From assembly GCF_004135405.1 (NCBI RefSeq), contig NZ_CP035491.1, positions 1,178,001 to 1,242,000 on the forward strand: a stretch of DNA of 64,000 nt, given 5' to 3'. This stretch comes from Agromyces protaetiae. Lineage in GTDB: Bacteria; Actinomycetota; Actinomycetes; Actinomycetales; Microbacteriaceae. Made by a program: the position numbers and the translations under genes. The stretch's first letter is position 1. Each line of letters begins with the position of its first letter. Shown here in pieces: positions 13,292-54,900 of this stretch. Below the pieces are notes generated by a model that saw only the letters and a list, made by a program, of their open reading frames with translations, was not told the DNA's origin and did no database searches.

Positions 13292-13803
13292 TCAGGCCTG
13301 GAGCTTGGGTCGCCAGCCGCGGGTCGAGACGGCCAGTTCGTTCCAGGCGTTGATCGAGACGAGGAGGGCGAGGAGGGCGGCCAGCTCGTCGTCGGTGAAG
13401 TGAGCGGATGCCTCGTGCCAGACCTCGTCGGGCACGTGCGTCTCGGAGAGCCGCGTGACGGCGTCGGTGAGGGCGAACGCCGCGCGCTCGCGCGGGGTGA
13501 AGAAGTTCGACTCGCGCCACACGGCGACGGCGAAGAGGCGCTGGTCGTGCTCGCCGGCGGCGAGCGCGTCGCGCGAGTGCTGGTCGACGCAGTACGAGCA
13601 GCCGTTGAGCTGCGAGGCGCGCAGGCGCACGAGTTCGCGGAGGAGCGGTTCGATGCCGACCCGGTCGGCTTCGGCGATCGCGGCGTCGTCGAGGGCGGTC
13701 ACGGCGCGGACGAACGCGGGGCGACGCCGTCGATGTCGAGGCGGCGGGCGGGTGCGACGGGGATCTCGGGGGCGGCCTGGAGGGGATTCTCGGTGATGGT
13801 CAT
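13292..13803 (-). pseudogene. AhpD-like carboxymuconolactone decarboxylase, one frameshift
   Basis: Restored reading is about 170 residues from ATG 13803 (TACCGT six bases upstream, leaderless type). The first 29 codons run in one frame up to 'DGVAP'; the remaining 'FVRAVTALDD...' continues in another. A G run at 13718-13721 is one base short: with five G the protein reads 'GVAPAFVRAV', as in relatives. The core 'NGCSYCVDQHS' carries the CxxC plus His of the AhpD/CMD redox family. Taken alone, the downstream piece would start at GTG 13702 (136 residues). Divergent from a MocR regulator, a recurrent pairing that suggests the regulator controls it. Probably a functional gene in the organism; see the homopolymer finding. 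Confidence 0.8.
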
Positions 13804-13849
13804 GGCTCCACGGTAGGAACGGGGCGCGGCGCTGGTAGCGTCCAATGGC

Positions 13850-15261
13850 ATGGCGGATGTCTGGGCCAATTCTGGATTGGATCTTCTCGTCGACCTCGAT
13901 CCGCGACGGAAGGCCGCGTCGCTCGAGGAGACCCTGCGTGCGGCGGTCGATGACGGCCGGCTCCCCGCAGGACTGCGGTTGCCGCCGAGCCGTACGCTCG
14001 CGAACGACCTCGGCGTCGCACGCAACACGGTCGCCGAGGTCTACGGTCGCCTCGTCGCCGAGGGCCGCCTCGACGCGCGCGTCGGCGCGGGCACGTGGGT
14101 GCGGGAGCGGCCGTCGCCGCGAACGTCAACGCCGGCGGATCGGTCGACGCGGTTCGACCTCGACCTCCGCGGCGGCATTCCCGACGGCTCGACGTTCCCG
14201 CGATCGGCCTGGGCTGAGGCCGTGCGGCGGGCACTCGCCCGGCCGCCGTCGGACGTCCTGGGATATGGAGCCCCCGAGGGCGTCCACGAACTCCGCGAGC
14301 GGCTCGCCGAGTACCTCGCGCGCACGCGCGGCGTGGACGCGGGCGCGGCCGACGTCGTCGTGACCCGAGGATTCGGCGACCTGCTCGCCCTCGTGGGCCG
14401 GGCGCTCGTCGACCTCGGCTCGCACCGCATCGCGGTCGAGGCGTACGGGCACGCGTCGCACCGGGACATCCTGAAGGCTGCCGGACTCGAGCTCGTCAGC
14501 CTGCCGCTCGACGCCGACGGCGCCCGCGTCGACCTGCTCGACGCCAGGACGCCGCCCGTCGACGCGGTGCTCCTCACGCCCGCGCACCAGTTCCCGACCG
14601 GGGTCCCCCTGTCGCGGCCGCGCCGCGCCGCGCTCGCCGACTGGGCGCACCGCACGGGCGGCTTCATCGTCGAGGACGACTACGACGGCGAGTTCCGCTT
14701 CGACGGCCGCAGCATCGGCGCGTTCCAACCGCACGCGCCCGAGCACACCGTCTACGGCGGCACGGCGAGCAAGGCGCTCTCACCCGCGCTGGGCCTCGCG
14801 TGGGGGTTCTACCCGACGCGCTCCGCGCCCCCGTGCTCGCGGCACGGCGGCGCCTCGGCGCCTCGACCGACGCGCTCTCGCAGCTCGCGCTCGCCGAATT
14901 CCTCGCGTCGGGCGCGTACGACCGCAGCGTGCGAGGCCTTCGCGCCCGATACCGCGCCCGCCGCGAACGATTCGAGGCGGTCGTCGCGGAGCGGCTGCCG
15001 GACGCTCGCGTGTCGGGGCTCGCCGCGGGCATCCAGTGTCTGCTCGAACTCCCGCGCGGGGTCTCCGAAGCACGGGTCGTCGCCGAGGCGTCCGCGCGAG
15101 GCGTTCGCACGCTGGGACTCGCCGACTACGCCGCCGACGGGAGCGTCGGAGCCGCCGCGCCCGCGATCGTCGTGGGGATCGGAGCGCCGCGCGAGCACCG
15201 CTTCGAGGCCGCGATCGGTGCGCTGGCCGACGCGGTCGACGCGGTCGCGTCTCAGTACTGA
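13850..15261 (+). pseudogene. MocR/PdxR-type GntR regulator, one frameshift
   Basis: Restored reading is about 470 residues. Residues 1-85 form a GntR winged helix ('GLRLPPSRTLANDLGVARNTV'); the rest is a fold-type I aminotransferase domain with 'LLTPAHQFPTGVPLS' and the PLP lysine in 'GTASKALSP'. The frame breaks at a G run (14802-14806, five G): one additional G gives 'GLAWGVLPDALRAPVLAARR', and the domain then continues in the other frame to 15261 with 'DQLALAEFLASGAYDR'-like helices. MocR proteins usually regulate B6, GABA or amino-acid genes. The divergent AhpD-like gene is the likely target. The tail overlaps the convergent thioesterase gene by 10 bases. Confidence 0.82.
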
Positions 15262-15686
15262 GAGGGCTTCGCGAGGATCGCCATCGTGCAGCGCGACACG
15301 CACACGAGACGCCCCTGGTCGTCGGTGATGCGGATGTCCCACACCTGCGTCGTGCGGCCGCGGCTGAGCGGCGTCGCGGTGCCCGTGACCCAGCCGTCGG
15401 CGACGGGTCGCACGTGGTTGGCGTTGATCTCCATGCCGACGCAGTAGAACTTCTCGGGATCGACCGTGAAGCTCGCGCCCCAGCTCGCGAGGGTTTCGGC
15501 GAGGACGACGGATGCTCCGCCGTGCAGCACGCCGCCCGGCTGGCGCGTGCGCCCGTCGACGGGCATGCGTCCGAAGAGGGAGTCGTCGGTCGACCCGGTG
15601 ATCTCGATGCCGAGCGCGCGCACGGCGGTCTCGGTGTTGCGGGAGGCCGCGTACTCGACGTCGGGCTCGACGAACCAGATGCTCAT
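15252..15686 (-). CDS. Hotdog-fold thioesterase (PaaI/MenI-like)
   Basis: 144 residues from ATG 15686. Carries the hotdog core 'GGVLHGGASVVLAETLASWGA', with HGG and a downstream acidic residue, typical of PaaI and of the 1,4-dihydroxy-2-naphthoyl-CoA thioesterase MenI. It hydrolyses an acyl- or aryl-CoA thioester in the cytosol; substrate not predictable. CACACT seven bases before the ATG may be a leaderless -10. Converges on and overlaps the MocR gene by 10 bases. Confidence 0.87.
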   Translation of the reverse strand: MSIWFVEPDVEYAASRNTETAVRALGIEITGSTDDSLFGRMPVDGRTRQPGGVLHGGASVVLAETLASWGASFTVDPEKFYCVGMEINANHVRPVADGWVTGTATPLSRGRTTQVWDIRITDDQGRLVCVSRCTMAILAKPSQY

Positions 15687-15732
15687 GCGTTCGAGTGTGC
15701 CACGAGGCATCCGCCCCTGGGTTGCCGACCGC

Positions 15733-16341
15733 CTACGCGAGCTCCGCGATGATCGGGTGGATCGCCTCGTCGAACGCCGCGGCGTCGGCCCGGAGGGAGT
15801 CGGTGACGGCGACCGTCATGCTGCCGATCCACCAGACGCCGGGCTCGACGAGCGGCACGACCTCGACGTTGAGCTCGAATGAGTGCGCGCGGCGCCCGAC
15901 CTCGCGTTCGTGCTCGGCGATCGTGCCCGCGTAGGCGCGGTACGAGTCGCCGCGACGGGTCGCCGACACGGTGCGGTAGGTGTCGTGGGCCCATTGGGCC
16001 CAGGCTCTGGATGCCTCGGCGTGCGGGCCGAGGGCCGCCGCGAGCTCTTCGGCACCCGACGTGGGGAGCGCGATCTCGGTGCCGTACGCGTCGAGCAGCT
16101 CGAGCGGCACGGGCGACGGATGCGCCTCGGGTTCGACCGTCATCGCCCACCACGCGCGCCATTGCCGTTCGATGGCGTCTTGCAGATCGGTCGACCGCGG
16201 CGGGCCGACGGGCCCGATGTCGCGCAGATGCGGCAGATCGACCGGTGAGGCGATGCCGAGCGCCTCACGCAGATACAGGGCGAGCAGCACCGGCTGACTC
16301 GCGTTCTCTCGAATCACCCACGACGGCGTCCCCCCGGACAT
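15733..16341 (-). CDS. Conserved hypothetical protein near purM
   Basis: 202 residues, soluble, Trp-rich at about residues 60-70 ('ERQWRAWWAMTVEPEAHP'), acidic overall. No recognised domain; no signal peptide or membrane helix. ATG 16341 is well placed: TAGAAT followed by exactly six bases, a leaderless promoter. It is transcribed divergently from purM (71 bases apart), which preserves its regulatory region as a shared one. I have seen similar genes beside purM in Microbacteriaceae; function unknown. Confidence 0.75.
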   Translation of the reverse strand: MSGGTPSWVIRENASQPVLLALYLREALGIASPVDLPHLRDIGPVGPPRSTDLQDAIERQWRAWWAMTVEPEAHPSPVPLELLDAYGTEIALPTSGAEELAAALGPHAEASRAWAQWAHDTYRTVSATRRGDSYRAYAGTIAEHEREVGRRAHSFELNVEVVPLVEPGVWWIGSMTVAVTDSLRADAAAFDEAIHPIIAELA

Positions 16342-16412
16342 GCTCGGATTCTACGCCGGAGCGCACGCTTCGCCCGGAGGAACGCGGACGTTTCGCCGGG
16401 TACCCTTGACGG

Positions 16413-17534
16413 GTGAGCGCCAACTCGTCCTATGCCGCGGCCGGAGTCGACACCGCCGCCGGCGACCTCGCCGTCGAACTCATGAAAGAGGCGGTCGCCG
16501 CGACCCACGGGCCGAGCGTGCTCGGCGGGGTCGGCGGCTTCGCGGGCCTCTTCGACGTCTCGGCCCTGAAGGGCTACGAGCGTCCGCTGCTTGCGACCTC
16601 GACCGACGGCGTCGGCACGAAGATCGCGATCGCGCAGGCGCTCGACATCCACGACACAATCGGCCAAGACCTCGTCGGCATGGTCGTCGACGACATCGTC
16701 GTGGTCGGGGCGAAGCCGCTCTTCATGACCGACTACATCGCGTGCGGCAAGGTCGTGCCCGACCGCATCGCGGCGATCGTCACGGGCATCGCGCGCGCGT
16801 GCGCCGAGACGGGCACGGCGCTCGTCGGCGGCGAGACGGCCGAGCACCCGGGCCTCATGGGCGCCGACGACTACGACGTCGCGGGTGCGGCGACGGGCGT
16901 CGTCGAGGCGAGCCGTGTGCTCGGCGCCGAGAAGGTCGAAGACGGCGATGCGATCCTCGCGATCGAGTCGTCGGGACTGCACTCGAACGGCTATTCGCTC
17001 GTCCGGCACATCCTGTCGCAGAAGGGCATTCGATACACGGATGTCTCGGCAGACCTCGGCACGTCGTGGGGCCAGGCGCTCCTCGAGCCGACGCGGCTCT
17101 ACACGGGGCCCCTCGTGAAGCTCCTCGAGACCGAGGGCGTCGGCACGTCGGTGCACGCGCTCTCGCACGTGACGGGCGGCGGCCTCGCGGCGAACCTCGC
17201 TCGCGTCCTGCCGCGCGGCTCGTGGGCCGAGGTCGACCGCTCGACGTGGTCGCCCGCGCCCGTGTTCCGCGTGCTCAACGACCTCGCGGGCACGACCCTC
17301 GAATCGACCGAGGGCACGTGGAACCTCGGCGTCGGCTTCTTCGCCGTCGTCTCGGCATCCGCCGCGACCGCCGCGATCGCTGCGCTCGCCGGGCTCGGCC
17401 TGCCCGCGTGGCAGGTCGGCACGGTGTCGACATCGGCGCTTCCTTCGTCGGGCTCAGGGCGCGAGGCGTTCGAGCAGGGCGCCAAGGGCGTCGACGGCGG
17501 AGCCGTGCGGCTCGTCGGATCGTACGCGGGCTGA
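16413..17534 (+). CDS. purM: Phosphoribosylformylglycinamidine cyclo-ligase (AIR synthase)
   Basis: 373 residues, full length. Closes FGAM to AIR using ATP, the fifth step of purine synthesis. Hallmarks: 'LATSTDGVGTKIAIAQ', 'GMVVDDIVVVGAKPLF' (metal/ATP Asp pair), 'GGETAEHPGLM' and 'SSGLHSNGYSLVR'. The GTG start follows TACCCT and six bases with no ribosome site, so the transcript is probably leaderless. The LLM enzyme gene follows 33 bases later on the same strand and the DUF3073 gene lies just beyond, an arrangement typical of actinobacteria. Confidence 0.97.
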   Translation: MSANSSYAAAGVDTAAGDLAVELMKEAVAATHGPSVLGGVGGFAGLFDVSALKGYERPLLATSTDGVGTKIAIAQALDIHDTIGQDLVGMVVDDIVVVGAKPLFMTDYIACGKVVPDRIAAIVTGIARACAETGTALVGGETAEHPGLMGADDYDVAGAATGVVEASRVLGAEKVEDGDAILAIESSGLHSNGYSLVRHILSQKGIRYTDVSADLGTSWGQALLEPTRLYTGPLVKLLETEGVGTSVHALSHVTGGGLAANLARVLPRGSWAEVDRSTWSPAPVFRVLNDLAGTTLESTEGTWNLGVGFFAVVSASAATAAIAALAGLGLPAWQVGTVSTSALPSSGSGREAFEQGAKGVDGGAVRLVGSYAG

Positions 17535-17567
17535 GCCGCACCGGGCGACGAGGGCGAGCGTGACGCG

Positions 17568-18368
17568 ATGATCGCCGGAGCCGCGCCCGTCTCGATCGGG
17601 CTGAACGCGAAGACGCCCGTCGACGACGTGCGGGCGCTCGCGCCGCGTGTCGAACGGCTCGGGTTCCGCACCCTGTGGGTCAACGACCTCCCGGGCACCG
17701 ACTCGCTCTCGGCGCTCCGCGCCGCGGCCGCCGCGACCACGACCCTCGAGGTCGCGACGGGCGTCATCCCGCTCGACCGGCGCCCGGCCGACACGCTCGA
17801 CCTCGACGGCATCCCCGCCGAACGGCTGACCCTCGGGATCGGCTCGGGGTCGGCGCCGACCGGACAACTGGCGCTCGTGCGCTCCGGCATCGGGGCGCTC
17901 CGCGCCCGCACCGACGCACGCATCGTCGTGGGCGCCCTCGGGCCGAAGATGCGGCGGCTGTCGGCGATCGACGCCGACGGGGTGCTGCTCAACTGGCTGA
18001 CGCCCGCGACCGCGGCCGGCGCCGTCGCCGAACTCCACCGCGATGCGCTCGAAGCACGGCTCGAGTCGGGAGAGAGCGATGACGAAGAGCGTGCCGTCCG
18101 AGGCATCCTCTACGTGCGCACGATCGTCGACGAGACCGCGCGACCGGCGCTCGAAGCCGAGGCGGCCGGATACGAGCGCGTGCCCGCGTACGCCGCGAAC
18201 TTCGAGCGGCTCGGCATCAGGGCGATCGACGCGACGATCTCCGAGGCATCCGCCCTCGACGCCTACCGTGACACGGTCGACGAAGTCGTGCTGCGCGCGA
18301 TCACGCCGGGCGGCACGCTCGCCGAGCTCGAGGACTTCGTCGAGCGCGCGGCGGAATGGCTCGCCTGA
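17568..18368 (+). CDS. Luciferase-like (LLM class) flavin-dependent oxidoreductase
   Basis: 266 residues. The N-terminal 'PRVERLGFRTLWVNDLPG', 'LEVATGVIPLDRRPADTL' and 'ERLTLGIGSGSAP' follow the pattern of the F420/FMN-dependent luciferase-like family, a TIM barrel using a deazaflavin or flavin cofactor. It is shorter than the usual 300 or more residues, which suggests a compact member. Substrate unknown. Probably co-transcribed with purM, 33 bases upstream. Confidence 0.85.
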   Translation: MIAGAAPVSIGLNAKTPVDDVRALAPRVERLGFRTLWVNDLPGTDSLSALRAAAAATTTLEVATGVIPLDRRPADTLDLDGIPAERLTLGIGSGSAPTGQLALVRSGIGALRARTDARIVVGALGPKMRRLSAIDADGVLLNWLTPATAAGAVAELHRDALEARLESGESDDEERAVRGILYVRTIVDETARPALEAEAAGYERVPAYAANFERLGIRAIDATISEASALDAYRDTVDEVVLRAITPGGTLAELEDFVERAAEWLA

Positions 18369-18385
18369 CGTGTCGCGCACACGTC
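18367..18385. terminator. Short hairpin between convergent genes
   Basis: GACGTGT-CGCGC-ACACGTC is a perfect 7-base stem with a 5-base loop that starts within the stop codon of the LLM gene. It lies between this gene and the convergent DUF3073 gene and could end transcripts from both sides. No T-run. Confidence 0.45.
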
Positions 18386-18426
18386 CCGCACCGGGCCGGC
18401 TCGCGCCGACCGCGGAGGGAGCAAGG

Positions 18427-18627
18427 TCAGCGCTGGGTGCCGTCGCCGGGGACGTAGGTGTCGTCGTCGGCGGTGTACTCCGCCCACTTCGACAGCTCGT
18501 CTTCGAGATGATCGTGCTGCGAACCCGTGAGTTCGCGCTCAAGCGCGTTGTAGTCGGTCTCAGGGCTGAAGTACTTCAGCTCACGAGCGACCTTCGTGTG
18601 CTTGGCTTTCTGACGGCCGCGCCCCAT
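18427..18627 (-). CDS. DUF3073 small basic/acidic protein
   Basis: 66 residues, short but full length for DUF3073. The N-terminus MGRGRQKAKHTKVARELKYF is basic and near-invariant in actinobacteria; the C-terminus is acidic ('EYTADDDTYVPGD'). ATG 18627 has AAGGGGG 8 bases upstream. Location beside purM is conserved in many actinobacteria. No molecular function is known; the charge split suggests nucleic-acid or ribosome contact. Confidence 0.93.
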   Translation of the reverse strand: MGRGRQKAKHTKVARELKYFSPETDYNALERELTGSQHDHLEDELSKWAEYTADDDTYVPGDGTQR

Positions 18628-18775
18628 GCGTGACCCCCTTACGACTTCTGGCCGGGTGGAAAGACTCCTCACCCGGCTCGTTCTGATAAATGACAATCCC
18701 TGGCTGGGAGTTTAGCACCGCCGGAAGCCCCGACAGTCGGGGGTCCTCACAGCCCGGAGGTGATGAGATAGACGC

Positions 18776-19945
18776 GTGACGAACGTACCCGAGCGTGTGA
18801 AGGTGACGGTGGTCGGCGCCGGCCAGGCCGGACTGTCGGTCGCCTTCTATCTGCGACGGTTCGAACTGGTCGCCGACGAGGACTTCGTGATCCTCGACCG
18901 CGCGCCCGGCCCCGGCGGCGCCTGGCAGCACCGCTGGTCGTCGCTGCGGCTCGGCACCGCGCACCGCGTCAACGATCTGCCGGGAATGGCCGAACTCGGG
19001 CTCAGCTTCGACACCGCCGACCGCGAACTTCCCGCGAAAGAGGTCGTCGCCGACTACTATGCGCGCTTCGAGGAGCACTTCGATCTGCGCGTGCACCGGC
19101 CGATGCAGGTGCGCAGGGTGCAGAACGACGGCGCCGACCTCCGCATCGACTACGAAGACCTGTCGCCGAGGCCGATCGAAGAGCAGAAGACGCGCGGGTT
19201 CTTCGGCCGTCGCCGCCGCACGTTCTCCGAGGTCGCGCCGCCCGCCGTGCCGCAGCACACCCTGCACACGCACTTCCTCGTCAATGCGACGGGCACGTGG
19301 GGGTCGCCGTTCGTGCCGTTCTACCCGGGCATGAGCGAGTTCCAGGGCCGACACCTGCACACGAGCGACTTCGTCGACGCCGAGGACTTCCGCGACCAGC
19401 ACGTCGTCGTCGTGGGCGGCGGCACCTCGGCGATCGGCTTCATGCTCGAGCTCGAAGACGTCGCGGCCGGGCTCACATGGGTGTCCCGCCGCCCGATCGA
19501 CTGGCTCGACCGGCAGGAGCTCGACCTCGAGGGCGCGTCGGCCGCGGTCGCGAAGCAAGACGAGGCCGCCCGATCGGGGCGTGCCCTGCCGTCGGTCGTG
19601 AGCGGCACGGGCGTGCCGAAGAACCGCCGCATCGCCGCGGGCATCGAGCGTGGCCTGCTCGTCGCGCGCCCCATGTTCGAGCGCATCGAGGGCGACCACG
19701 TCGTCTTCGACGACGGTTCGACGGTCAAGGCCGACGCGATCATCTGGGCGACGGGCTTCCGCCCCGAGCTGCGTCACCTCTCGCCGCTCAAGCTCCGCGA
19801 GAAGGCGGGCGGCGTGACCGTCGGCCAGGGCGCGGTGTGGAGCGACCCGCGCGTCTTCCTCGCGGGCTACGGTCCGCAGGCGTCGACGATCGGCGCGAAC
19901 CGCGCGGGGCGCATGATCGCCCGCCAGATCATGGCGATGCTGTAG
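18776..19945 (+). CDS. Flavin-containing NAD(P)/FAD monooxygenase-like protein
   Basis: 389 residues. Residues 8-40 are an FAD Rossmann motif ('VTVVGAGQAGLSVAFYLRR'); 'GGAWQHRWSSLRLGT' follows the usual G-G-x-W element; a second nucleotide-binding motif 'VVVVGGGTSAIGFMLEL' near residue 205 binds NADPH; 'IIWATGFRP' is the late ATG motif. Looks like a class B or YpdA-like flavoprotein acting on a small substrate. GTG start is preceded by GGAGGTGAT about 12 bases away. The 3' end overlaps the convergent exporter gene by 17 bases. Confidence 0.87.
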   Translation: MTNVPERVKVTVVGAGQAGLSVAFYLRRFELVADEDFVILDRAPGPGGAWQHRWSSLRLGTAHRVNDLPGMAELGLSFDTADRELPAKEVVADYYARFEEHFDLRVHRPMQVRRVQNDGADLRIDYEDLSPRPIEEQKTRGFFGRRRRTFSEVAPPAVPQHTLHTHFLVNATGTWGSPFVPFYPGMSEFQGRHLHTSDFVDAEDFRDQHVVVVGGGTSAIGFMLELEDVAAGLTWVSRRPIDWLDRQELDLEGASAAVAKQDEAARSGRALPSVVSGTGVPKNRRIAAGIERGLLVARPMFERIEGDHVVFDDGSTVKADAIIWATGFRPELRHLSPLKLREKAGGVTVGQGAVWSDPRVFLAGYGPQASTIGANRAGRMIARQIMAML

Positions 19946-20822
19946 AGGATGCCTCGGGGCGCGCGCCTCTCGTGCGCACGGCGCCGATCGACGCGGCCAC
20001 GACGAGTGCGACGGCGATCGCGCCGACCCACGTGAACCCCTGCCCGAGCAGGACGAGCCCCGCGATCGCGGCCATCGCGGGCGCGAGGCTCATGAGCACG
20101 GCGAACGTGCCGGCCGGCAGGCGCCGGAGCGCGATCAGTTCGAGCGCATAGGGGATCGTCGACGACAGGAGCGCGACGGCGGCGCCGAGGGCGAGCACGT
20201 CGGGGCGCACGAGGGTCGCGCCGGTCGCGGCGATGCCGAACGGGAGGATCGCGAGCGCGCCGATCGTCATGGCGATCGCGAGTCCGTCGAGTCCGGGGAA
20301 GCTCCTGCCGGTGCGGGCCGACAAGAGGATGTACCCCGCCCACGTCGCTCCGGCGCCCCCGGCGAGGGCGACGCCGAGCGGGTCGAGGTGGCCGAAGCTG
20401 CCCTGGCCGAGGAGCGCGACGCCCGCCGCGGCGAGGGCGGCCCAGAGCCACGCCGAGGCCCGTCGGCTCGCGACGACCGACAGCGCGAGCGGCCCGAGCA
20501 CTTCGATCGTGACGGCGGCGCCCAGCGGGATGCGCTCGATCGAGAGGTAGAAGAGCGCGTTCATGAGCGCGAGGACGAGCCCGAAGCCGGCGACGGTGAG
20601 CCAGGCGCGGGCAGGATGTCCCGTGAGCCGCGGCCGTGCGATGGCGAGGAGCACGATCGCCGAGAAGGCGAGTCGGAGGGTGACCATGCCGAGCGGGCCC
20701 GCGGTCGGGAAGAGGATGACGGCGATCGACGCGCCGACCTCCTGGCACGCGAGGCCGATGACGACGAGCGCCGTCGCTCCAACCGGTCCGCCGAAGGCGG
20801 CGGCGAGGCGGGAGCGGGTCAC
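19929..20822 (-). CDS. EamA/DMT-family exporter
   Basis: 297 residues with about ten hydrophobic segments and two EamA repeats, typical of drug/metabolite transporters such as RhtA-like amino-acid exporters. An alternative start 63 bases upstream is less likely because GTG 20822 sits exactly six bases after TACCGT, a leaderless pattern. Substrate unknown. Convergent overlap of 17 bases with the monooxygenase gene. Confidence 0.86.
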   Translation of the reverse strand: MTRSRLAAAFGGPVGATALVVIGLACQEVGASIAVILFPTAGPLGMVTLRLAFSAIVLLAIARPRLTGHPARAWLTVAGFGLVLALMNALFYLSIERIPLGAAVTIEVLGPLALSVVASRRASAWLWAALAAAGVALLGQGSFGHLDPLGVALAGGAGATWAGYILLSARTGRSFPGLDGLAIAMTIGALAILPFGIAATGATLVRPDVLALGAAVALLSSTIPYALELIALRRLPAGTFAVLMSLAPAMAAIAGLVLLGQGFTWVGAIAVALVVAASIGAVRTRGARPEASSTASP

Positions 20823-21040
20823 TCCTCGACGGTACTCGCATCTCGTGGAGTCACCGTTCGAGTCGCCGGCATGATCGGAACGCACGGCGCTTCCGGCATC
20901 CTCGAATCATGCCCCGACCGATAGGTTGAACTCGGATACCGGTTCCGAAGGAATGCTCGACTCGCCCCCGCCCGTCGCCCCCGACTTCGCGGCGCCGATG
21001 CGGTCGCGCCCGTCCTCGCGGAGCCCGAGAAGGGGACCCC

Positions 21041-21733: not shown

Positions 21734-21799
21734 ACGGCCGGATTGCCGGTCGTGAGCACTCCCAGCGGCGGAGCAGACGCGATTGCTAGTGTTTCGCGG

Positions 21800-22497
21800 G
21801 TGACCGCCTCCGTTCGAACGATGCCCGCCCGTCGCCCGTACGTGCTCCTTGCGTTCTTCGGACTCGTCGTGACCGCGTTCCTCGCGCTCACGGGCGCGCA
21901 GCCCGCGAGCGCGCACGACTCGCTCCTCGCGTCGACGCCCGCGGACGGCGAGGTGTTCGACGCCGCGCCCGCCGCGATCGAGCTCACCTTCTCCGACGAC
22001 GTCATCGAGGTCGGCAGCGTCATCGAGCTCGTCGACCACCACGGCGAACAAGTCGAGATCGGCGAGACCGTGGTGCTCGGCCCGAGGTCTCGGCGACGCT
22101 GCCCGCAGACCTGTCGGGCGACTACCAGGCGAGGTGGAAGGTCGTCTCGAGCGACGGCCACCCCGTCGAGGGCACGATCGACTTCGGCGTCGGCCCCGAC
22201 GCGACCGGCGTGTGGACCGAGCAGCCCGCGCACGACGACGCAGACGCCGGCGACGAGGCATCCGATGCGACCGGCGACGCGCCCGTCGTGGGCGACGAGT
22301 CCGACGACGTGAGCGTCGCGCCCATCTCCGCGCAGGGCGTCGGCCAGTGGGCTGTGCCGCTCTTCATCGTCGCAGGGGTCGTGATCGTCGGGCTCATCGT
22401 CACGGTCATCGTGCTCGCCCGCAGGCGTCCTCCGGGGACGAGGCCCGACACGGGCTCGGACGCCGGCACGGACTCCGGCTTCGACCCGAGCGCATGA
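21800..22497 (+). pseudogene. copC: CopC-domain copper-binding membrane protein, one frameshift
   Basis: Restored reading is about 232 residues. GTG 21800 lies seven bases after TAGTGT (leaderless type). Signal peptide to 'QPASA-HDSLLASTPADG': the His directly after the cleavage site is the N-terminal copper ligand of the CopC/YobA family. A C run at 22081-22083 is one base short; with four C the frame continues 'LGPEVSATLPADLSGDYQARW', then 'VSSDGHPVEGTIDF' with the second conserved His. An acidic linker, one membrane helix (VPLFIVAGVVIVGLIVTVI) and RRR follow. Likely binds Cu(II) outside the membrane. The stop overlaps the next start as ATGA. Confidence 0.85.
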
Positions 22498-28804: not shown

Positions 28805-29852
28805 TCACCGACGCAGCGCGTTCCGGCGAGCTCCGAGGAGGAGCAGCCCGGCGACGAGCAGGAGCCCCGCAAGCGGCGCAGCGCTCACGTCCGGCCCCGT
28901 CGAGGCGAGCGTCCCCGCGCTCGCGGCCCCTCCGATCGCGAGCGCCCCGCGACCGAGACCGTCGTCGACCCGCCGTCGCCCGGGTTCGACGGACTGCTCG
29001 GGTCGGTGGGGTCGGTCGGGTCGGTGGGGTCGGTCGGCCCGGTGGGGTCGGTCGGCGTGGTCGGCCCCGTCGGGTCGACGACGTTCGACGGGCTCTCCGT
29101 CGTGCTGTCGCCGACGACCGAGATCGCATTGCCCCGACCGTGACGGGCACGGAGAGTGCGGGTGCGAGCTGCGTGCCGCCGAGGATGCCGTCGAGGAGTC
29201 CCGGCCCGCTGTCGCCCGAGGTCGACGGGCCGCTGCCTCCCGTACCGCCGCCGGAACCGCCGCCGGCCGCGTTCGACGCGCCCGTCGACGACGAGTCGCC
29301 GAGCACGCTGATCGCGTTCCCGCCGACCGTCACCGGGATGTCGACGTTCGGCACGATCTGCGTGCCGCCGAGGATGCCGTCGTCGCCCGACGTCGAGGCG
29401 CTGCCCTCGTCGCCCGAGTCGGCACCGGCCCCCGGTTCGGCTCCCGAGTCGCCGACCGCGTTCGACGCGCCCGTGGACGAGGAGTCGCCCAGGACGCTCA
29501 CCGCGTTCCCGCCTACCGTGACCGGCACCGACAGATCGACGAGCGCCTGCGTGCCCGATGCGATCCCGTCGCTGCCGCTCGTCGTCGCGCCCGAACCGGG
29601 CGCGCTCGCCGCCGCAGGCGTCGAGGCCGTGGAGGTCGTCGAACCGGTCGACGACGAGTCGCCGAGCACCGAGATGCCGTTGCCCGAGATCGTGATCGGC
29701 AGGTCGATCGAGAGGAGGGCCTGGGTGCCCGAGAGGAGGCCGTCCTGGCCGCTCGTGTCCGCGGCGTGGGCGGCACCCGCGCCGAGGAGGGTGAGCCCTC
29801 CCGTGAAGAGGGTCGCGTAGAGCGCCCTCAGCGCGATTCGTTTGAGGTTCAT
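28805..29852 (-). pseudogene. Chaplin-like repeat protein with LAXTG sorting signal, two frameshifts
   Basis: Restored reading is about 349 residues. AGGAGA precedes ATG 29852; signal peptide to about residue 30 (AHAA). Four repeats follow, each close to G(I/L)L(S/G)GTQ....(V/L)P(V/I)T(V/I).GN.(I/V)SV.GDS(S/T), resembling chaplin units but without cysteines. Then a Pro/Thr/Asp linker (repeated PTDPT) and a C-terminus with LASTG, a hydrophobic helix and RRNALRR: a class E sortase (LAXTG) signal. Two runs of C on the plus strand are one base short: 29132-29135 (restores 'VTVGGNAISVVG' in repeat 4) and 28945-28948 (restores the entry to the sorting signal). Probably a wall-anchored amyloid-like surface protein. 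Confidence 0.8.
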
Positions 29853-45298: not shown

Positions 45299-45372
45299 TG
45301 CGAGGTTCCTTCGTCGACGTCGGGTTCAGTCGACCTCCCACAGTCTGGCACCGGCCGGGGAGCGGACACAAC

Positions 45373-45405
45373 CGCCCCCGGGGGCTTCACCCCAGTTCGG
45401 GGGCG
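45373..45405 (-). terminator. Hairpin downstream of hutH
   Basis: CGCCCCC (45373-45379) pairs with GGGGGCG (45399-45405) around a 19-base loop that can pair further. It lies 20 bases past the hutH stop codon on the minus strand, ahead of the M23 gene. Confidence 0.5.
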
Positions 45406-45424
45406 CCTCGTTTCGCGGCCTCGA

Positions 45425-46972: not shown

Positions 46973-47026
46973 CCTTCAATTGCAGCCGCCGCCGGTGCAC
47001 ACGGAAACGCCGATCGCCGCGTCGCC

Positions 47027-47042
47027 GTCCGGAATACCGGAC
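47027..47042. promoter_or_regulatory. Operator between hutH and the IclR gene
   Basis: GTCCGGAATACCGGAC has perfect 6-base arms and one mismatch to the palindrome in front of hutU. Placed 55 bases upstream of hutH and 119 upstream of the regulator gene, it fits control of hutH and autoregulation. Confidence 0.83.
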
Positions 47043-47073
47043 ACGCCGTATGCTGTGCTCAGAATCTCCGCGA

Positions 47074-47129
47074 GAGGGGTCGCTCTGGCACGGCTGAGCG
47101 ATGGCGCAACCGTGCCAGAGCGACCCCTC
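47074..47129 (+). repeat. Perfect 20-bp inverted repeat ahead of the IclR gene
   Basis: GAGGGGTCGCTCTGGCACGG (47074-47093) is followed after 16 bases by its exact reverse complement (47110-47129). In RNA it forms a very stable hairpin ending 32 bases before the GTG of the regulator gene. It could be a transcription attenuator, an mRNA stabiliser, a terminator of a short upstream transcript or a degenerate mobile-element end. Confidence 0.8.
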
Positions 47130-47160
47130 ACGGGAGGTGGATGCGCGAGGGGAGGCTCGG

Positions 47161-47940
47161 GTGACGACGAAGTCGAAGGTGCCCGCCGCCGACCAGACGC
47201 TCGCGATCCTCGCCCACCTCGCCTCGCAACGCGGACCGGTGCCCGCCGCGACGATCGCGAACGCCCTGCACTTGCCGCGCTCCACCGTGTACCACCTGCT
47301 CCAGGTCATGCGGGAGCGCGGGTTCGTCGTGCACCTGCCCGAAGAACGCCGCTACGGGCTCGGCGTCGCCGCGTTCGAACTCAGCTCGGGGTTCAGCCGC
47401 CAGCAACCGCTCGCGCGCCTCGGGCGCCCCCTCGTCGCGACCCTCGTCGACCGCCTCGGCGAGAGCGGCCACCTCGCGGTGCTCCACGGCCGCGACGTCG
47501 TCTACCTCGTCGAGGAGCGCGCTCCGCGCCGCCCGTCGCTCGTCACCGACATCGGCGTGCGCCTGCCCGCCCACCTCACGGCGACGGGGCGTGCGATGCT
47601 CGCCGAGCTTCCGCCCGCGCAGCTCCGGGCGCTCTACCCCGACGCGTCGGCCTTCGCGGCACGCGCGGGCGAGGCATCCGAACCCTGGACCTACCGGCGA
47701 CTGAAGTCGGTGCTCGAACGCGTGCGCCTCGACGGCTGGGCCGCCGAGGACGGCGAGATCACGCAGGGCCTCGCGTCGGTCGGGGCGGTCGTCGTCGACC
47801 ACGTCGGCTGGCCGGCCGCGGCGGTCGCCGTGACGTATCCGGATGACTCGGAGCGCGACATCCTCGGCGAGGTGGTGCCGACCGTGCGCGACGCCGCCGC
47901 GACGCTCTCGCGCAGGATCGGCGGAGGGGAGCCGCGATGA
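47161..47940 (+). CDS. IclR-family regulator, probable hut regulator
   Basis: 259 residues from GTG 47161, which has GAGGGGAGG 6 bases upstream; a longer frame from 47101 would place 20 residues of the inverted repeat in the protein. N-terminal winged helix ('ILAHLASQRGPVPAATIANA', 'LPRSTVYHLLQVMRERGFV'), then the IclR ligand domain ('LHGRDVVYLVEERAPRRPS', 'HLTATGRAMLAEL', and 'DGEITQGLASVGAVV'). Located divergently from hutH and sharing palindromes with hutU, it is the likely repressor of histidine use; the inducer is probably urocanate or a later intermediate. Overlaps the DedA gene (ATGA). Confidence 0.9.
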   Translation: MTTKSKVPAADQTLAILAHLASQRGPVPAATIANALHLPRSTVYHLLQVMRERGFVVHLPEERRYGLGVAAFELSSGFSRQQPLARLGRPLVATLVDRLGESGHLAVLHGRDVVYLVEERAPRRPSLVTDIGVRLPAHLTATGRAMLAELPPAQLRALYPDASAFAARAGEASEPWTYRRLKSVLERVRLDGWAAEDGEITQGLASVGAVVVDHVGWPAAAVAVTYPDDSERDILGEVVPTVRDAAATLSRRIGGGEPR

Positions 47941-48611
47941 TCGCGCACGCCGTCGCCGAAGCCGCCGCCGACCCGTCGGGGCCCGTGTCGGATCACGGTT
48001 TCACGGGGCTCACGGGCTTCGCGGCCGATGTGCTCACGGCGCTCGGCGACGTCGGGGTGGGTGTGCTCGTCTTCGTCGAGGTGCTCATCCCGCCCATCCC
48101 GAGCGAGGTCATCCTGCCGTTCGCGGGCTACCTCACCCAGTCGGGCGACCTCAGTCTCGTGCCGCTCATCCTGTGGTCGACGCTCGCGTCGGTCGTCGGC
48201 GCGCTCCTCTGGTACGGGCTCGGGCGGTGGATCGGCCTCGAACGCGCCGTGCGGTTCGTCGAGTGGACGCGGCTCGTGAGCCGCGCCGACCTCGATCGTG
48301 GCGTCGCGTGGTTCCACAAGTACGAGACGTGGTCGGTGCTCATCGGCCGGCTCATCCCGGGCGTTCGCAGCCTCATCTCGATCCCGGCCGGCGCCGACCG
48401 CATGCCGCTCTGGTCGTTCATCGGGCTCACGGCGATCGGCTCGGGCGTCTGGAACGCGCTCCTCATCGGCCTCGGCGCGCTGCTCGGGCGACAGCACGAC
48501 GTGCTCGAGCAATGGCTCGGCTACCTCGACCTCGTCGTCTACGCCGCGCTCGCCGCGTTCGTGATCTGGCTCATCGTGCGCCGGGTGCGCGCGGGGCGAG
48601 CCACCTCCTGA
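47937..48611 (+). CDS. DedA/SNARE-associated family membrane protein
   Basis: 224 residues with about five helices. DedA hallmarks: 'EVLIPPIPSEVILPFAGYL', 'GALLWYGLGRWIG', and 'FHKYETWSVLIGRLIPGVRSLISIPAG' shortened here to its RLIPGVRSLISIPAG core. DedA proteins flip phospholipids (undecaprenyl-phosphate or phosphatidylethanolamine classes). Start overlaps the IclR stop; the 3' end overlaps the convergent gene by 41 bases. Confidence 0.92.
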   Translation: MIAHAVAEAAADPSGPVSDHGFTGLTGFAADVLTALGDVGVGVLVFVEVLIPPIPSEVILPFAGYLTQSGDLSLVPLILWSTLASVVGALLWYGLGRWIGLERAVRFVEWTRLVSRADLDRGVAWFHKYETWSVLIGRLIPGVRSLISIPAGADRMPLWSFIGLTAIGSGVWNALLIGLGALLGRQHDVLEQWLGYLDLVVYAALAAFVIWLIVRRVRAGRATS

Positions 48612-49176
48612 GCGAGCGGGTCACGAACGGCAGCACCCAGAACGTCATGATGGGCGTCAGCACGAGCGTCGTCACGAGCACGCGCACGACGATCGGCAGC
48701 AGATCCCACCCGGGCACGGGCGAGATCAGGTACGAGAACACGAGGTTGACCGGGAAGAAGCCGAGCCAGATCGTCACCGCCTGCTTCCACCTGGGCGGGG
48801 CGGGCGGCGGCGCCGTCTCGTCGAGGGCCGCGCCCGAGGCATCCACCACCGGGATCGAACCCGTCGGCGGCTCGTCGAACCATCCCTCGATGCCGGTCCT
48901 GCGACGGCTCCGCTCGCTCTGCACGAACGCCTGACCCGTCGAGAGCCACCACGTGCGCTCGGGGGACTGCTCCCACGCCTCGAGGGTCTCCTCGTTCGCG
49001 AACCGGTAGAGCATGTGCCACACGTGCGACTGCTCGCCCGCTCGCACCCACCCCGACCCGAGGAAGCCCGGGTACTTGTTCGCGAGGTTCACGCCCGTCT
49101 GCACCCACGCGGTCGCCTCCGAGATGCGCGCGGGGTCGACCTCGCGGCGGATCGAGACGGTGATCGGTTCGCTCAT
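48571..49176 (-). CDS. ABM-domain protein fused to a two-helix membrane anchor
   Basis: 201 residues from ATG 49176. Residues 1-95 read as an antibiotic-biosynthesis-monooxygenase fold ('ITVSIRREVDPARISEATAW', 'YPGFLGSGWVR', 'HVWHMLYRFANEETLEAWEQS'). Residues about 135-195 hold two membrane helices ('WLGFFPVNLVFSYLI', 'VLVTTLVLTPIMTFWVLPFV') and a basic tail. This ABM plus two-helix fusion is a recurring but uncharacterised architecture. TGCAAT six bases before the ATG may be a leaderless -10. Confidence 0.83.
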   Translation of the reverse strand: MSEPITVSIRREVDPARISEATAWVQTGVNLANKYPGFLGSGWVRAGEQSHVWHMLYRFANEETLEAWEQSPERTWWLSTGQAFVQSERSRRRTGIEGWFDEPPTGSIPVVDASGAALDETAPPPAPPRWKQAVTIWLGFFPVNLVFSYLISPVPGWDLLPIVVRVLVTTLVLTPIMTFWVLPFVTRSLRRWLAPRAPGAR

Positions 49177-49274
49177 GCCTCTATTGCACCGCATCGGCGT
49201 GACGAGCGCGTTTCGGATGCCCCGTGGCGCGCGTCGGCCCGGTGCCCTCGTGCCGACCGTCCGACGAGTGACCT

Positions 49275-49781
49275 TCAGAGTGCGCGCGTGAACGCGACGC
49301 GGTGCTCGCCGGGACCGTCGTAGTCGGCCCATGCGACGACGCCGTCGAACTCCGCGTCACCCGTGAGGGTGAAGCCCATCGCCCGGTGGAACGCCTGCGA
49401 GCGGCGGTTGCCGGGGCCCGTGATCGCTTCGACGCGCGTCGACCCGGCCGCGCGCGCCTCGGCGAAGAACTCCGTGTAGAGCGTGCGCGCGAGACCCGTC
49501 TCGCGGAGATCGGGCCGCACTCCCACGAAGTGGATGTACGACACCGCCGGGTCGGACTGCGAGCGGAAGCCGATGAGGAACGCGGCGAGCGCGTCGTCTT
49601 CCACGATGAAGGAGGTATCGGCGAAATGCTGGAAGAACAGTCGCGGGAGCACGAGCGGCAGCCGCGAGTCGGCGGGCAGGCCCCACCAGTCGGGGATGAC
49701 CGTGACGACCGCTCGGTGGTCGGTGGGCATCGGCCGCCGAACGGTGAGGCCCGACGGGAGCGCGAGGGCGGCGATGGGCAT
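49275..49781 (-). CDS. GNAT N-acetyltransferase
   Basis: 168 residues from ATG 49781. 'IHFVGVRPDLRETGLARTLYTEFF' holds the acetyl-CoA loop (R-E-T-G-L-A); 'GPGNRRSQAFHRAMGFTLTG' is the late GNAT motif. Substrate unknown. GAGGAT six bases before the ATG. Confidence 0.87.
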   Translation of the reverse strand: MPIAALALPSGLTVRRPMPTDHRAVVTVIPDWWGLPADSRLPLVLPRLFFQHFADTSFIVEDDALAAFLIGFRSQSDPAVSYIHFVGVRPDLRETGLARTLYTEFFAEARAAGSTRVEAITGPGNRRSQAFHRAMGFTLTGDAEFDGVVAWADYDGPGEHRVAFTRAL

Positions 49782-49908
49782 GGTGTGATCCTCGCAGGGT
49801 CGACGCCCGGTGTCGACGGCCCGGCATGCTTCTCGATGTCGGACGGAACGGATACAGTCGTGCCGATCGAAGGCGGGCGACCTCCGCTGCCAAACGCGAA
49901 GGAGCCGT

Positions 49909-51120
49909 GTGTCCGACGACCGCCAGCCCGCGCCGACGCTCGACCCGACCCGTGAACCTCCGACGACGATGCCGACCCCGCCGACCGTGCGTCGCCGTTC
50001 GCCCTGGCTCGTCATCGGCATCGTCGCCGCCGCGATCGTCGGCCCGGCCGCGTGGTACCTCGGCGCCGGCTACGGATTCCACGTCATCCGGCAGGAGGCG
50101 ATCGCGAACGCCGTGCCGACGATCGACGCCGCCGATGCGGCATCCGATGCGCTGCGCAGCGAGGCGGCGCGCGCCCGCGGCGAATCCGCAGCCGCCGACG
50201 AGCTCGAGGGCTCGGTGCTCCCCGGTCTCGGCGACGGCGAGCCGCTCGACCGTGTGAAGGCCGGCACCGACGCCGTCGACGCGCTCGCGGCCGACGCCGA
50301 CTTCGACCTCCCCGACCCCATCGCCTACGACGAGAGCGCGCTCCGCCCGTTCTGGGTGAGCCTCGCCGAGATCTTCGAGACCGCTGAACTCCGCGAGACC
50401 CTCGTCGCCGACACCGATCGCATGTCCGACGAGGCCGACGAACTCGCCGACGCACGCGCGGAGGTCGAAGACGCCCGCACCGACCTGCTCGACGCCGCGC
50501 TCGCCGCGGCCGACGCCAGGCTCGCAGCCCTGCCGTACGCGACGAGCGAATCGCGGTTCGGGCTCGACGAAGCCGAAGCGCTCGTCGAGAATGCGAAGAC
50601 CCAGGCGCCCGCCTCGCGGGACTCCTACATCGCGCTCGCCGAAGCGCTCGCGGGCGTCGAGGCCGCCCACAACGCCGAGAGCGTCCGACGGGCGGCGCCC
50701 GAGTACGCCGAGCGAGGCCCCGTCGAAGACTTCGCCCGCTCGATCGCGCACGACGTGCCGCTCGACTTCGTGTGGGAAGACGTCGTCAACGGCAGAGCGA
50801 GCGCCGAGTGGTACTCGGGCCTCACGACGTTCTGGCCGGGCGGCGGCCGGTGGGCGAAGGTCGAGCTCACGTACAGTGTCGCCGAATCGTTCGCCGACGA
50901 CATCAACGCGAAGGCGCTCGTCGCGCACGAGGTCGGCCACGCGCAGGGCTCGCGCACGGAGTGCAACGAGATCGTCGAAGGCCCCGCCTTCGGCGGCGAC
51001 CACGAGAAGTGGGCGACGGCGTGGGCGATCGCGATGGGCTACGACGTCCCGGGTTCGGGCATCGAGCCGTACGGCCGCCCGTCGGATGAGCAGATCGCGC
51101 AAGCACGCACGTGCGTGTGA
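49909..51120 (+). CDS. Membrane-anchored putative zinc metallopeptidase
   Basis: 403 residues; GTG 49909 with AAGGAGCC upstream. A Pro-rich cytoplasmic start, one N-terminal membrane helix ('WLVIGIVAAAIVGPAAWYL', about 29-50), then a long acidic helical region (50-260) rich in Ala/Asp/Glu and a C-terminal domain with 'VAHEVGHAQG' (HExxH, about residue 340) and a possible third ligand in 'GGDHEKWATAWA'. The pattern suggests an extracytoplasmic zincin. No named family recognised. Function inferred from the motif only. Confidence 0.65.
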   Translation: MSDDRQPAPTLDPTREPPTTMPTPPTVRRRSPWLVIGIVAAAIVGPAAWYLGAGYGFHVIRQEAIANAVPTIDAADAASDALRSEAARARGESAAADELEGSVLPGLGDGEPLDRVKAGTDAVDALAADADFDLPDPIAYDESALRPFWVSLAEIFETAELRETLVADTDRMSDEADELADARAEVEDARTDLLDAALAAADARLAALPYATSESRFGLDEAEALVENAKTQAPASRDSYIALAEALAGVEAAHNAESVRRAAPEYAERGPVEDFARSIAHDVPLDFVWEDVVNGRASAEWYSGLTTFWPGGGRWAKVELTYSVAESFADDINAKALVAHEVGHAQGSRTECNEIVEGPAFGGDHEKWATAWAIAMGYDVPGSGIEPYGRPSDEQIAQARTCV

Positions 51121-51145
51121 CCCCGCGCCCCGCTTGCCGCGCGCC

Positions 51146-52162
51146 TCAGCCCAGGTGTTTGTGCAAGAACGCGGCGACCCGGGCGCGGAGCGCCTCGTCG
51201 AGGATGCCGATCGAGTGTTCGTCGCCCGGCACGACGGCGAGTTCCACGGGTACGCCCGCGGCCTCGAGCGCGTTCGCGTAGCCGAGGGACTGCGCGAGCG
51301 GGATGATCTCGGATTCGGCGTGCCCGATGAAGACGGGCGGGTCGCTCGCATCGAGGAAGGTCGTGGCCGAGGCATCCGCCGCTCGCTCGCATCCGCCGTC
51401 GGAGACGTTGGCGACCTCGTCGACTCCGCACCCGAGGTAGGCCGCACTGATGCCCCGCAACCACTCGCTCGCCCCCGCGAGCGAATCGAGCATGACCGGA
51501 CCCGAGAGCTCGGCGACGGCCGCGACCCGCGCCCCCGTGTCGGTCGCGCCCTCCCCGCGTGCGCCGAGCAGCGCCGCGAGGTTGCCGCCCGCCGAGCCGC
51601 CGAACACGCCGATGCGGGCTGGGTCGATGCCGAACCGCTCGGCCTGCGCGGGCTCGCGGAGCCATTCGACCGCGAGCGACACGTCGTCGATCTGCGCCGG
51701 GAACGTCGCGTCGGGCACGAGTCGGTAGTTCACGGATGCCGCGATGAAACCCTCGCTCGCGAGCCACAGGCAGACCTTCCGCCAGTCGGCGTTCGCCTTG
51801 TCGCCGCGCGCCCAGCTGCCGCCGTGCACCGACACGACCGCGGGAAGCGGCACCCCGAGGGCGGCTCCGGGCGGGCTGCACACGTCGAGCGTCAGAAGCG
51901 TGCCGTCGTCGCGCACCCCGTATTCGAGATCGGGCTCGACGCCGACGCCCGCGGGCGCCTCGAACGTGCGGATGCCGATGATCTCGGGCCCAGCGACCTC
52001 GCTCGCCGCCTTCGCGGGGCCGGGGTCGATCTCGCTGAGCGGCAGGTGGAAGCCCGACAGCGCCGCCGTCGCCCCGAGCGCGCCCGCGATCGCGGCTGCG
52101 GCGAGGAGCGTCCGGCTGCGGCGCCGGCCTCCGCGTCCGCCGGAGGGACGGGTTCGGGTCAC
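51146..52162 (-). CDS. Secreted alpha/beta-hydrolase (esterase-like)
   Basis: 338 residues from GTG 52162. N-terminal RGGRRRSRTLLAAAAIAGAL is a signal or anchor helix. Hydrolase core: oxyanion 'VVSVHGGSWARGD', nucleophile 'GVFGGSAGGNLAALLG' (Ser in GxSAG), then 'DPPVFIGHAESEIIPLAQS' and catalytic His in 'GDEHSIG'. Belongs to the hormone-sensitive-lipase/carboxylesterase type (BD-FAE-like). Substrate unknown. Confidence 0.9.
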   Translation of the reverse strand: MTRTRPSGGRGGRRRSRTLLAAAAIAGALGATAALSGFHLPLSEIDPGPAKAASEVAGPEIIGIRTFEAPAGVGVEPDLEYGVRDDGTLLTLDVCSPPGAALGVPLPAVVSVHGGSWARGDKANADWRKVCLWLASEGFIAASVNYRLVPDATFPAQIDDVSLAVEWLREPAQAERFGIDPARIGVFGGSAGGNLAALLGARGEGATDTGARVAAVAELSGPVMLDSLAGASEWLRGISAAYLGCGVDEVANVSDGGCERAADASATTFLDASDPPVFIGHAESEIIPLAQSLGYANALEAAGVPVELAVVPGDEHSIGILDEALRARVAAFLHKHLG

Positions 52163-52193
52163 TGGTGCTCCGGGGCTTCGAGGTGGAGCGATG

Positions 52194-52670
52194 CTACCCC
52201 AGATTCTTCGCCATGCAGACGCTGAACTCCTCGCCCACGTACTGGCCGAAGAGCGGCACGACCTCGTACCCCGCCTTCGCGTACATCGCCTGGGCGGCGT
52301 CGTGGCGGGTGCCCGTCTCGAGCACGATGCGGCGGATGCCGCGCGCCGAGGCATCCTGTTCGATGCGCTCGATGATCGACGTGCCCACGCGACGCCCTCT
52401 CGCCGACTCGTGCACGAACATGCGCTTGAGCTCGGCCGTGCCGTCGACGCCGTCGACGAGCGCACCCATGCCGAGCGCCTCGCCGACGTCGCCGCGCGCG
52501 ACGTAGAACGCGACGCCCGGCCGTTCGAGCGACTCGACATCGAGGAGGAAGCACGCCTCGGGCGGGTAGAGGGAATAGGAATAGGCCTCGCTCCCGCGCA
52601 GCATTTCGTCGACCTCGGGCTGGCGGGGCGATTCGAGGGCGACGGTGACGGATGCCTCGGCTGCACGCAT
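52194..52670 (-). CDS. GNAT N-acetyltransferase
   Basis: 158 residues from ATG 52670, which follows TACGCT by six bases (leaderless). 'LKRMFVHESARGRRVGTSIIERIEQDA' shows the R-G-R-R-V-G acetyl-CoA loop (cited as RGRRVGTS); 'HDAAQAMYAKAGYEVVPLF' is the C-terminal motif. Substrate unknown. Confidence 0.88.
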   Translation of the reverse strand: MRAAEASVTVALESPRQPEVDEMLRGSEAYSYSLYPPEACFLLDVESLERPGVAFYVARGDVGEALGMGALVDGVDGTAELKRMFVHESARGRRVGTSIIERIEQDASARGIRRIVLETGTRHDAAQAMYAKAGYEVVPLFGQYVGEEFSVCMAKNLG

Positions 52671-52925
52671 GCCGCGAGCGTACGCGTGCGGTGTTACGAG
52701 GCGGTTTCTCAGGGGCATCCGCTATCGTTGACGGGTCGGTTCTGGACACCGCGAGGTTTCGCGGATGGGTTTGTGAGTCCATCGGGCCGGTTTCGAGGCG
52801 AATGGGCCTCGGATAGTCACACCGTATGTGAACGGCCCCGGCTCTACGTCAGCTCCGGGTTCTCAGGTGCCGCGCGCGAGCGCGGTCGTACTGCCATGTA
52901 CTCGGAACAACCCAGAAAGCTCAGC
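52671..52925 (+). promoter_or_regulatory. Long leader of the DEAD-box helicase gene
   Basis: About 190-200 bases separate a promoter-like region near 52720-52735 (CTATCGTTGACGG) from the helicase start. No ORF with a ribosome site fills it. Long structured leaders are common in front of cold-inducible DEAD-box genes, so it may mediate temperature or autogenous control, but nothing specific can be proved here. Confidence 0.35.
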
Positions 52926-54900
52926 ATGCCCAAGAACACGAACTTCGATCCCAATCGGGCCAAGGGCCGCAAGCCCTACCGTCCCGGCGGCGCGCCCGCG
53001 CGCGGCGGGCAGTCGGCCCAGAAGCCCGGCTCGCGCAGCGCCGGCCACCGGGGCTACCGCCCCGAAGAGGCGGATGCCTCGAAGAAGGCACCCCGTTGGT
53101 CGCGCGAGCAGCGCGAAGCGACCGGGCGTACGCCGCACCGCGCCGACCGTCCGGGTCGTGATGACCGTGCGCCTCGCTCGTTCGAACGTGACGACCGCGC
53201 TCCCCGACGCGACTTCGACCGCGACCGTGCGTCGCGTTCGTTCGATCGTGACGACCGTTCGTCGGGGCGGCGTTACGACCGCGACGACCGCGCTCCGCGC
53301 CGTGACTTCGATCGTGACCGTGCACCGCGTTCGTTCGATCGGAACGACCGCGACCGTGCGCCGCGCCGCGACTTCGACCGCGATCGCGACCGTGCGCCCC
53401 GTTCGTTCGATCGTGATGACCGTGCGCCGCGTCGCTACGACCGTGACGACCGTGCTCCGCGTTCGTTCGATCGCGACGACCGCGCCCCCCGTCGCTTCGA
53501 GCGTGACGACCGCGCCCCCGCCGCGACTTCGACCGCCCGGGCTTCCGCGACAGCGAGCGCCGCCCGTCGTCGTTCTACCCCGCCAAGGACGAGCGCCCCC
53601 GCTTCACCCCGAAGACGACGTCGTGCTCGAGCGCCTCGAGGCCGAGGCCATCCAGGCCGACGCCGTCGAGGGCATCGGCTTCGGCGACCTCGGGCTCGGC
53701 GGCAACATCGTGCGTGCGCTGAAGGAGCTGGGTGCCGAGTCGCCGTTCCCGATCCAGGCTGCGACGATTCCGCAGGTGCTCGAGGGCCGCGACGTCCTCG
53801 GCCGCGGCCGCACGGGCTCAGGCAAGACCATCGCGTTCGGCGCGCCGACCGTCGAGCGGCTCATGCAGCTCTGGTCGGCCTCGGACAAGGCCGGCGGCAA
53901 GCGGGTCATGGGCCGCGCTCCGCGCGCGCTCGTCCTCGCGCCGACCCGCGAGCTCGCCCTCCAGATCGACCGTACGGTGCAGCCCATCGCGCAGTCGGTC
54001 GGCCTCTTCACGACCCAGGTCTACGGCGGCGTCCCCCAGGCCCGCCAGGTCGGTGCGCTGCGACGCGGCGTCGACATCGTGATCGGCACCCCGGGCCGCA
54101 TCGAAGACCTCGTGCGCCAGGGCCACCTCGACCTCTCCGAGATCGAGATCACCGTCCTCGACGAGGCCGACCACATGTGCGACCTCGGGTTCCTCGAGCC
54201 CGTGCAGCGCATCCTCCGCGAGACGAAGGAGGGCGGCCAGAAGCTCCTCTTCTCGGCGACCCTCGACTCGGGCGTCGCGATGCTCGTCGACGAGTTCCTC
54301 GTGAACCCCGCCGTTCACGAGGTCGCCGGTGAAGACCAGGCGTCGGGCACGATCGAGCACCGCGTGTTCGTCATCGACAACCGCGACAAGCGCGACATCG
54401 TCGCGATGCTCGCCGACCGCGACGGCAAGACCCTCGTCTTCAGCCGCACGCGCGCGTTCGCCGAAGACCTCACCGAGCACCTCGAAGACGCCGGCATCCG
54501 TGCCGTCGCCCTCCACGGCGACCTCAACCAGTCGCGTCGCACGCGGAACCTGCACCAGCTCACGAGCGGGCGGGTCGACGTGCTCGTCGCGACGGATGTC
54601 GCGGCACGAGGCATCCACGTCGACGACATCGACCTCGTGATCCAGGCCGACGCGCCCGACGAGTACAAGACGTACCTGCACCGCTCGGGCCGCACGGGCC
54701 GTGCGGGCGCCGCGGGACGCGTCGTGACGCTCATCCCGCGCAACCGCCAGCGCCGGATGGCCGAGCTCCTCGACCGCGCCGAGATCGACGTCGACTTCGA
54801 AGACGTGCAGATCGGCGATGCCGTGCTCTACGATCTCGGTCCGATCGACGTCGAGGCGCCGGTCGCAGCCGCCGACGCCGACGAGTCGACCGAGGCCTGA
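52926..54900 (+). pseudogene. DEAD-box RNA helicase with charged repeat domain, two frameshifts
   Basis: Restored reading is about 658 residues; ATG 52926 preferred (AGAAAG upstream), ATG 52896 is in frame. N-terminal 75 residues basic; residues about 75-200 are Arg/Asp-rich repeats (DRDDRAPR, SFDRDDR) like RNA-binding, phase-separating tails. Two C runs are one base short: 53515-53519 (five C; an identical unit 30 bases upstream has six) and 53607-53610. With both restored the protein continues into the helicase core: Walker A 'GRTGSGKT', 'APTRELALQID', 'LDEADHM', 'LFSATLD', 'VATDVAARGIHVDDID', 'HRSGRTGRAG'. Unwinds RNA in ribosome assembly or decay. Confidence 0.9.

Follow-up and report, generated by a model that had tools for sequence, protein, structure and literature searches.

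Frame breaks near short G/C runs in the Agromyces protaetiae genome sequence: very probably assembly errors rather than broken genes

In a 64,000-base stretch of the Agromyces protaetiae genome (hereafter the window, positions 1178001-1242000; the genome is a single contig of 3,683,091 bases with a GC content of 71-72%), five genes coding for an AhpD-like protein, a MocR-like regulator, CopC, a chaplin-like surface protein and a DEAD-box helicase change reading frame at seven places, and every such step equals the absence of one base that intact relatives have. The seven breaks are, with very high probability, consensus errors of the assembly, which lost one base at a time within or next to short G/C homopolymers; we infer that the five genes are intact in the organism. 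Indeed, such losses all go in the same direction, are linked to G/C runs, are spread over the sampled genome, contrast with what is found in congeners and also hit the prs gene. The original prediction had listed frame breaks at these seven places, in four to five genes and always by deletion: all seven are present, five genes are affected, and the steps are all −1 in the window, as are 21 out of 21 in a sample taken outside it.

Sites were compared at the nucleotide level with distinct aligned relative sequences reaching 30 bases beyond the site on either side; where there are repeats, one relative may contribute more than one aligned sequence to the counts. The two sites located in repetitive proteins (53515-53519 and 28945-28948) were judged by reading frames and not by comparison of base lengths. 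The AhpD-like gene, of the carboxymuconolactone decarboxylase family (13292-13803, minus strand, with a start at 13803 assigned by eye), breaks at about 13718-13721; the Pfam family CMD is found in its longer piece, and of 16 aligned relatives, 13 have exactly one extra base at the site, the other three showing a net difference of −7 that does not fit. The MocR-like regulator (13850-15261, plus strand), made of GntR and aminotransferase domains, breaks at about 14802-14815. Its first piece carries the Pfam families GntR and Aminotran_1_2; a Pfam search with the second piece returned no family. The break was marked as −1 by the decoder described below, and all six tblastn references give a −1 step at 14803-14815. 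Among 16 aligned relatives, 15 are compatible with a one-base difference modulo 3 (13 of them exactly one base), with a single misfit.

The case of the CopC gene (21800-22497, plus strand, GTG start assigned by eye) is similar: the Pfam CopC domain is divided between two frames, with a break at about 22075-22087 that the decoder marked as −1, and for which all four tblastn references indicate −1 and all 15 aligned relatives are exactly one base longer. The deletion had been placed in the CCC at 22081-22083; the loss of one base stands, but its position within the stretch is not fixed, as relatives L126 and L246 put the missing base in the GG that precedes 22081 and not in the CCC, and others put it after. 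More generally, adding a G or a C to the named run had been said to restore the protein at every site. The one-base deficit relative to other genomes agrees with this, but the exact lost base is not resolvable because relatives vary within and beside the G/C runs. The comparison with orthologues, which had been put forward as a check, found most relatives one base longer at the AhpD-like, MocR-like and CopC sites and at the second helicase site.

In the chaplin-like surface protein (28805-29852, minus strand), two breaks at about 29132-29135 and 28945-28948 leave the repeats, the spacer and the LAxTG-type tail each in a different frame, three frames in all; the repeat part belongs to Pfam ChpA-C, and beyond 28945-28948 the tail sits in the third frame. 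At 29132-29135, 18 of 31 aligned sequences fit (16 with exactly one base), the 13 misfits arising because the repeats misalign, and one tblastn reference gives −1 at 29133. The tail lies in the repeat frame in 12 of 14 loci from relatives, and the two others end without it. The region 28805-29852 brings together ChpA-C repeats, a proline-rich spacer and an LAxTG-type tail in one protein, the repeat part of which is matched in 42 of the 60 genomes of the genus set. Loci L144 (G013) and L147 (G054) hold chaplin-like repeats without an in-frame spacer and tail, a situation that could be either a variant or a break.

The DEAD-box helicase (52926-54900, plus strand) has an R/D-rich repeat region and contains the Pfam families DEAD and Helicase_C; among named records, its core is closest to those of Agromyces mediolanus and A. 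soli (90% identity). With breaks at about 53515-53519 and 53593-53611, its N-terminus, junction and core occupy frames 3, 2 and 1, respectively, which form a single frame in congeners. At 53607-53610, 54 of 56 relatives fit (42 with exactly one base) and two do not; start and core share one frame in 25 of 30 distinct congener loci, while among the remaining five, four are truncated where their contig ends and one (L023) opens near its contig start. An intact copy with six C (53485-53490) does stand 30 bases upstream of the five-C copy (53515-53519), as had been described. The long R/D-rich repeat (53100-53520) precedes the helicase core, and in four of the 30 distinct loci (L015, L021, L052 and L173) the contig ends before the helicase start; such a repeat may break assemblies.

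One could imagine that some sites, chiefly those in the helicase and chaplin-like repeats, are phase-variable switches or programmed frameshifts, since repeats occur in two of the five genes, decoder marks also fell in the helicase repeats of two congeners (L244 and L247), and, for the helicase taken alone, one +1 step could give the net shift. We grant this next to no probability. A single programmed +1 shift was rejected: the stretch between the two helicase sites is sensible only in the intermediate frame, and two −1 steps are therefore needed. In the two congeners, helicase start and core are in one frame (loci L174 and L166), so the decoder marks there are false, being repeat artefacts; the 25 intact loci, with five unreadable to the start, speak against recurrence in relatives, as do the 12 of 14 chaplin-like tails in frame, even with two absent. 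Moreover, the same type of break is found in unrelated genes elsewhere in the genome.

These other breaks come from a survey of codon phase by a seven-state Viterbi decoder (non-coding plus the six coding frames), trained on 333 long ORFs from four genomes, including the genome under study, a break being counted when the old frame stays open for at least 45 bases past the switch. In the window, the decoder marked two of the seven sites (MocR-like and CopC), both as −1; on 20 spread stretches outside it (400 kb), it found 21 breaks, each of them −1. A control on three congeners (800 kb) yielded one mark, in G004 (400 kb), and none in G058 and G048 (200 kb each), and 20 further congeners, sampled as two 20-kb stretches each (800 kb), yielded six: three in G006, two in G054 and one in G062, four being −1 and two +1. 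Pooled, the congener controls total 7 marks over 1.6 Mb, as compared with 21 over 0.4 Mb of the studied genome, a factor of 12, which becomes 42 against the three congeners alone and 7 against the 20-congener panel alone. Counted by stretch, 12 of 20 are marked in the studied genome against 3 of 40 in the panel, and the three congeners show one mark in 40 stretches. In the 387 kb of congener sequence corresponding to the surroundings of the window, there were four marks, two of which proved false. Within the panel, the three marks of G006 (L303, G006:C1:1700001-1720000, at about 3183, 5896 and 8113) are all −1 and lie beside C/G runs within 20 kb, and the assembly of this one-contig congener may suffer from a similar fault; the two marks of G054, also a one-contig genome (L312, G054:C1:1700001-1720000, at about 2993 and 5998), are of the +1 type.

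The sensitivity of the decoder was estimated by simulation. Of 120 single-base deletions in G/C runs of at least 4, 63 were found (62 called −1 and one +1), and of 120 single-base duplications at random coding positions, 71 were found and all were called +1; the −1 bias is therefore not created by the decoder. Taken with this sensitivity, 21 marks in 400 kb lead to an estimate of about 100 breaks per Mb, which, read as errors, agrees with seven in 64 kb. Since homology reached only 92,334 of the 464,000 bases of sample and window, the genome-wide count relies on the decoder. In the sample, the homology scan further pointed to gaps other than −1, at 12783 and 16459 in L198 and at 5834 in L199. 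Two homology marks in the window, 13168-13216 and 15687-15692, were excluded from the break count. The former lies upstream of the start codon (13147) of a gene that we take to be purF-like; from 13147 to 13216, two relatives match a frame shifted against this gene, and the stretch is probably non-coding. The latter, given by a single reference with a net +1, falls between two decoded genes.

The link with G/C runs was examined on 23 marks, namely the 21 from the sample and the two in the window. A G/C run of at least 4 lies within 15 nt of 18 of them, against 17% of 20,000 coding positions drawn at random, and the mean run length observed at the marks was reached by none of 5000 random samples. 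In the run-length spectrum, long G/C runs were not clearly depleted relative to three congeners, a null result that gives no support either way because errors in few runs would stay invisible.

Among the marked genes outside the window is prs, a housekeeping gene coding for PRPP synthetase (ribose-phosphate diphosphokinase), an enzyme expected to be required for growth without rich supplements. It has a single match in the genome and holds one decoder break, at about base 1865345 of the chromosome, where each of the 20 sequences from congeners has one more base and on either side of which the two parts match the two halves of the enzyme. Further marks fall in a RibD gene and in O-acetylhomoserine sulfhydrylase, all three references for the latter giving −1. 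Another mark, L191 15632, has a piece of NadA on one side and an almost complete NadB on the other, and could reflect overlapping genes rather than an error.

Had the genes been broken for long, one might look for decay in their remaining parts. The decay test took in six pieces (AhpD-like, two of MocR-like, two of CopC and the helicase core), the chaplin-like gene being outside it, and none contains an internal stop. Their pN/pS values are 0.18 for AhpD-like, 0.31 and 0.57 for MocR-like, 0.95 and 0.68 for CopC and 0.18 for the helicase core, as compared with 0.23-0.89 across the 31 intact window genes that have a reference (six others have none): two pieces are below this range, three are inside it, and one, the CopC N-terminal piece, short and uninformative, is just above. 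Most of the six pieces give no sign of the decay elsewhere in the same genes that had been named as refuting the assembly-error reading, though a very recent break would leave no trace.

The breaks would be real mutations if frameshifts had recently accumulated in a burst, or genes had decayed, in this strain, favoured by NucS, the actinobacterial mismatch repair enzyme, ignoring small indels. According to a section of PMC11551767, NucS of Mycobacterium smegmatis indeed leaves indels of 1-2 bp unrepaired, which is the strongest argument for this view, the reliance of Agromyces on NucS being an assumption, and phase variation at homopolymeric tracts is mentioned in the same source. We regard such an origin as very unlikely: about 100 breaks per Mb, one sign in all 21 sampled cases and a hit in prs, which has a single match, are hard to square with a growing culture; congeners, presumably with the same repair, show only 7 marks in 1.6 Mb; and most of the tested pieces are without sign of decay. 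It is highly improbable that the short runs are real and that, despite hundreds of recent −1 frameshifts, including that of prs, the proteins are still made because RNA polymerase or the ribosome slips at G/C runs. The initial interpretation, homopolymer errors in an assembly and not independent decay, is supported by the −1 marks over the sampled genome, the congener contrast and prs, and reaches beyond the window across that sample.

Assembly errors of this kind would arise if, in a long-read assembly of a GC-rich actinobacterium made without polishing by accurate short reads, the consensus step drops single bases in or beside short G/C homopolymers; that sequencing or assembly is the cause, and that the platform is of this type, we likewise infer. 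There are precedents. In the portion of PMC4849082 concerned with such errors, PacBio assemblies of actinobacteria are described as tending to miss a G or a C in homopolymers, which shifts frames, and the errors were located by GC frame plot; an extract of PMC4832174 reports 205 indels, nearly all in G/C homopolymers, corrected with Illumina data in a 7.17-Mb Streptomyces genome with 73% GC. Judging from these extracts, our case is alike in the G/C homopolymer loss and in the shifted frames of GC-rich genes, and its estimated density of about 100 per Mb is above that of 205 in 7.17 Mb. For nanopore assemblies, parts of PMC12007338 and PMC8011154 describe mainly false deletions, mostly after runs of four to five, and false pseudogenes produced by such homopolymer deletions; in the part of PMC12007338 concerned, A/T runs are more affected than G/C runs (59% GC), whereas the breaks here lie near G/C runs, in a genome (71% GC) where A/T runs of at least 4 are rare.

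We are thus almost certainly dealing with an ordinary assembly artefact and not with real gene loss. The combination of codon phase and congener controls can flag a faulty GC-rich assembly without reads. Should the estimate be right, several hundred genes in the annotation of this genome are falsely broken or split, and any claim of gene loss or missing function in it is unsafe until the assembly has been polished.
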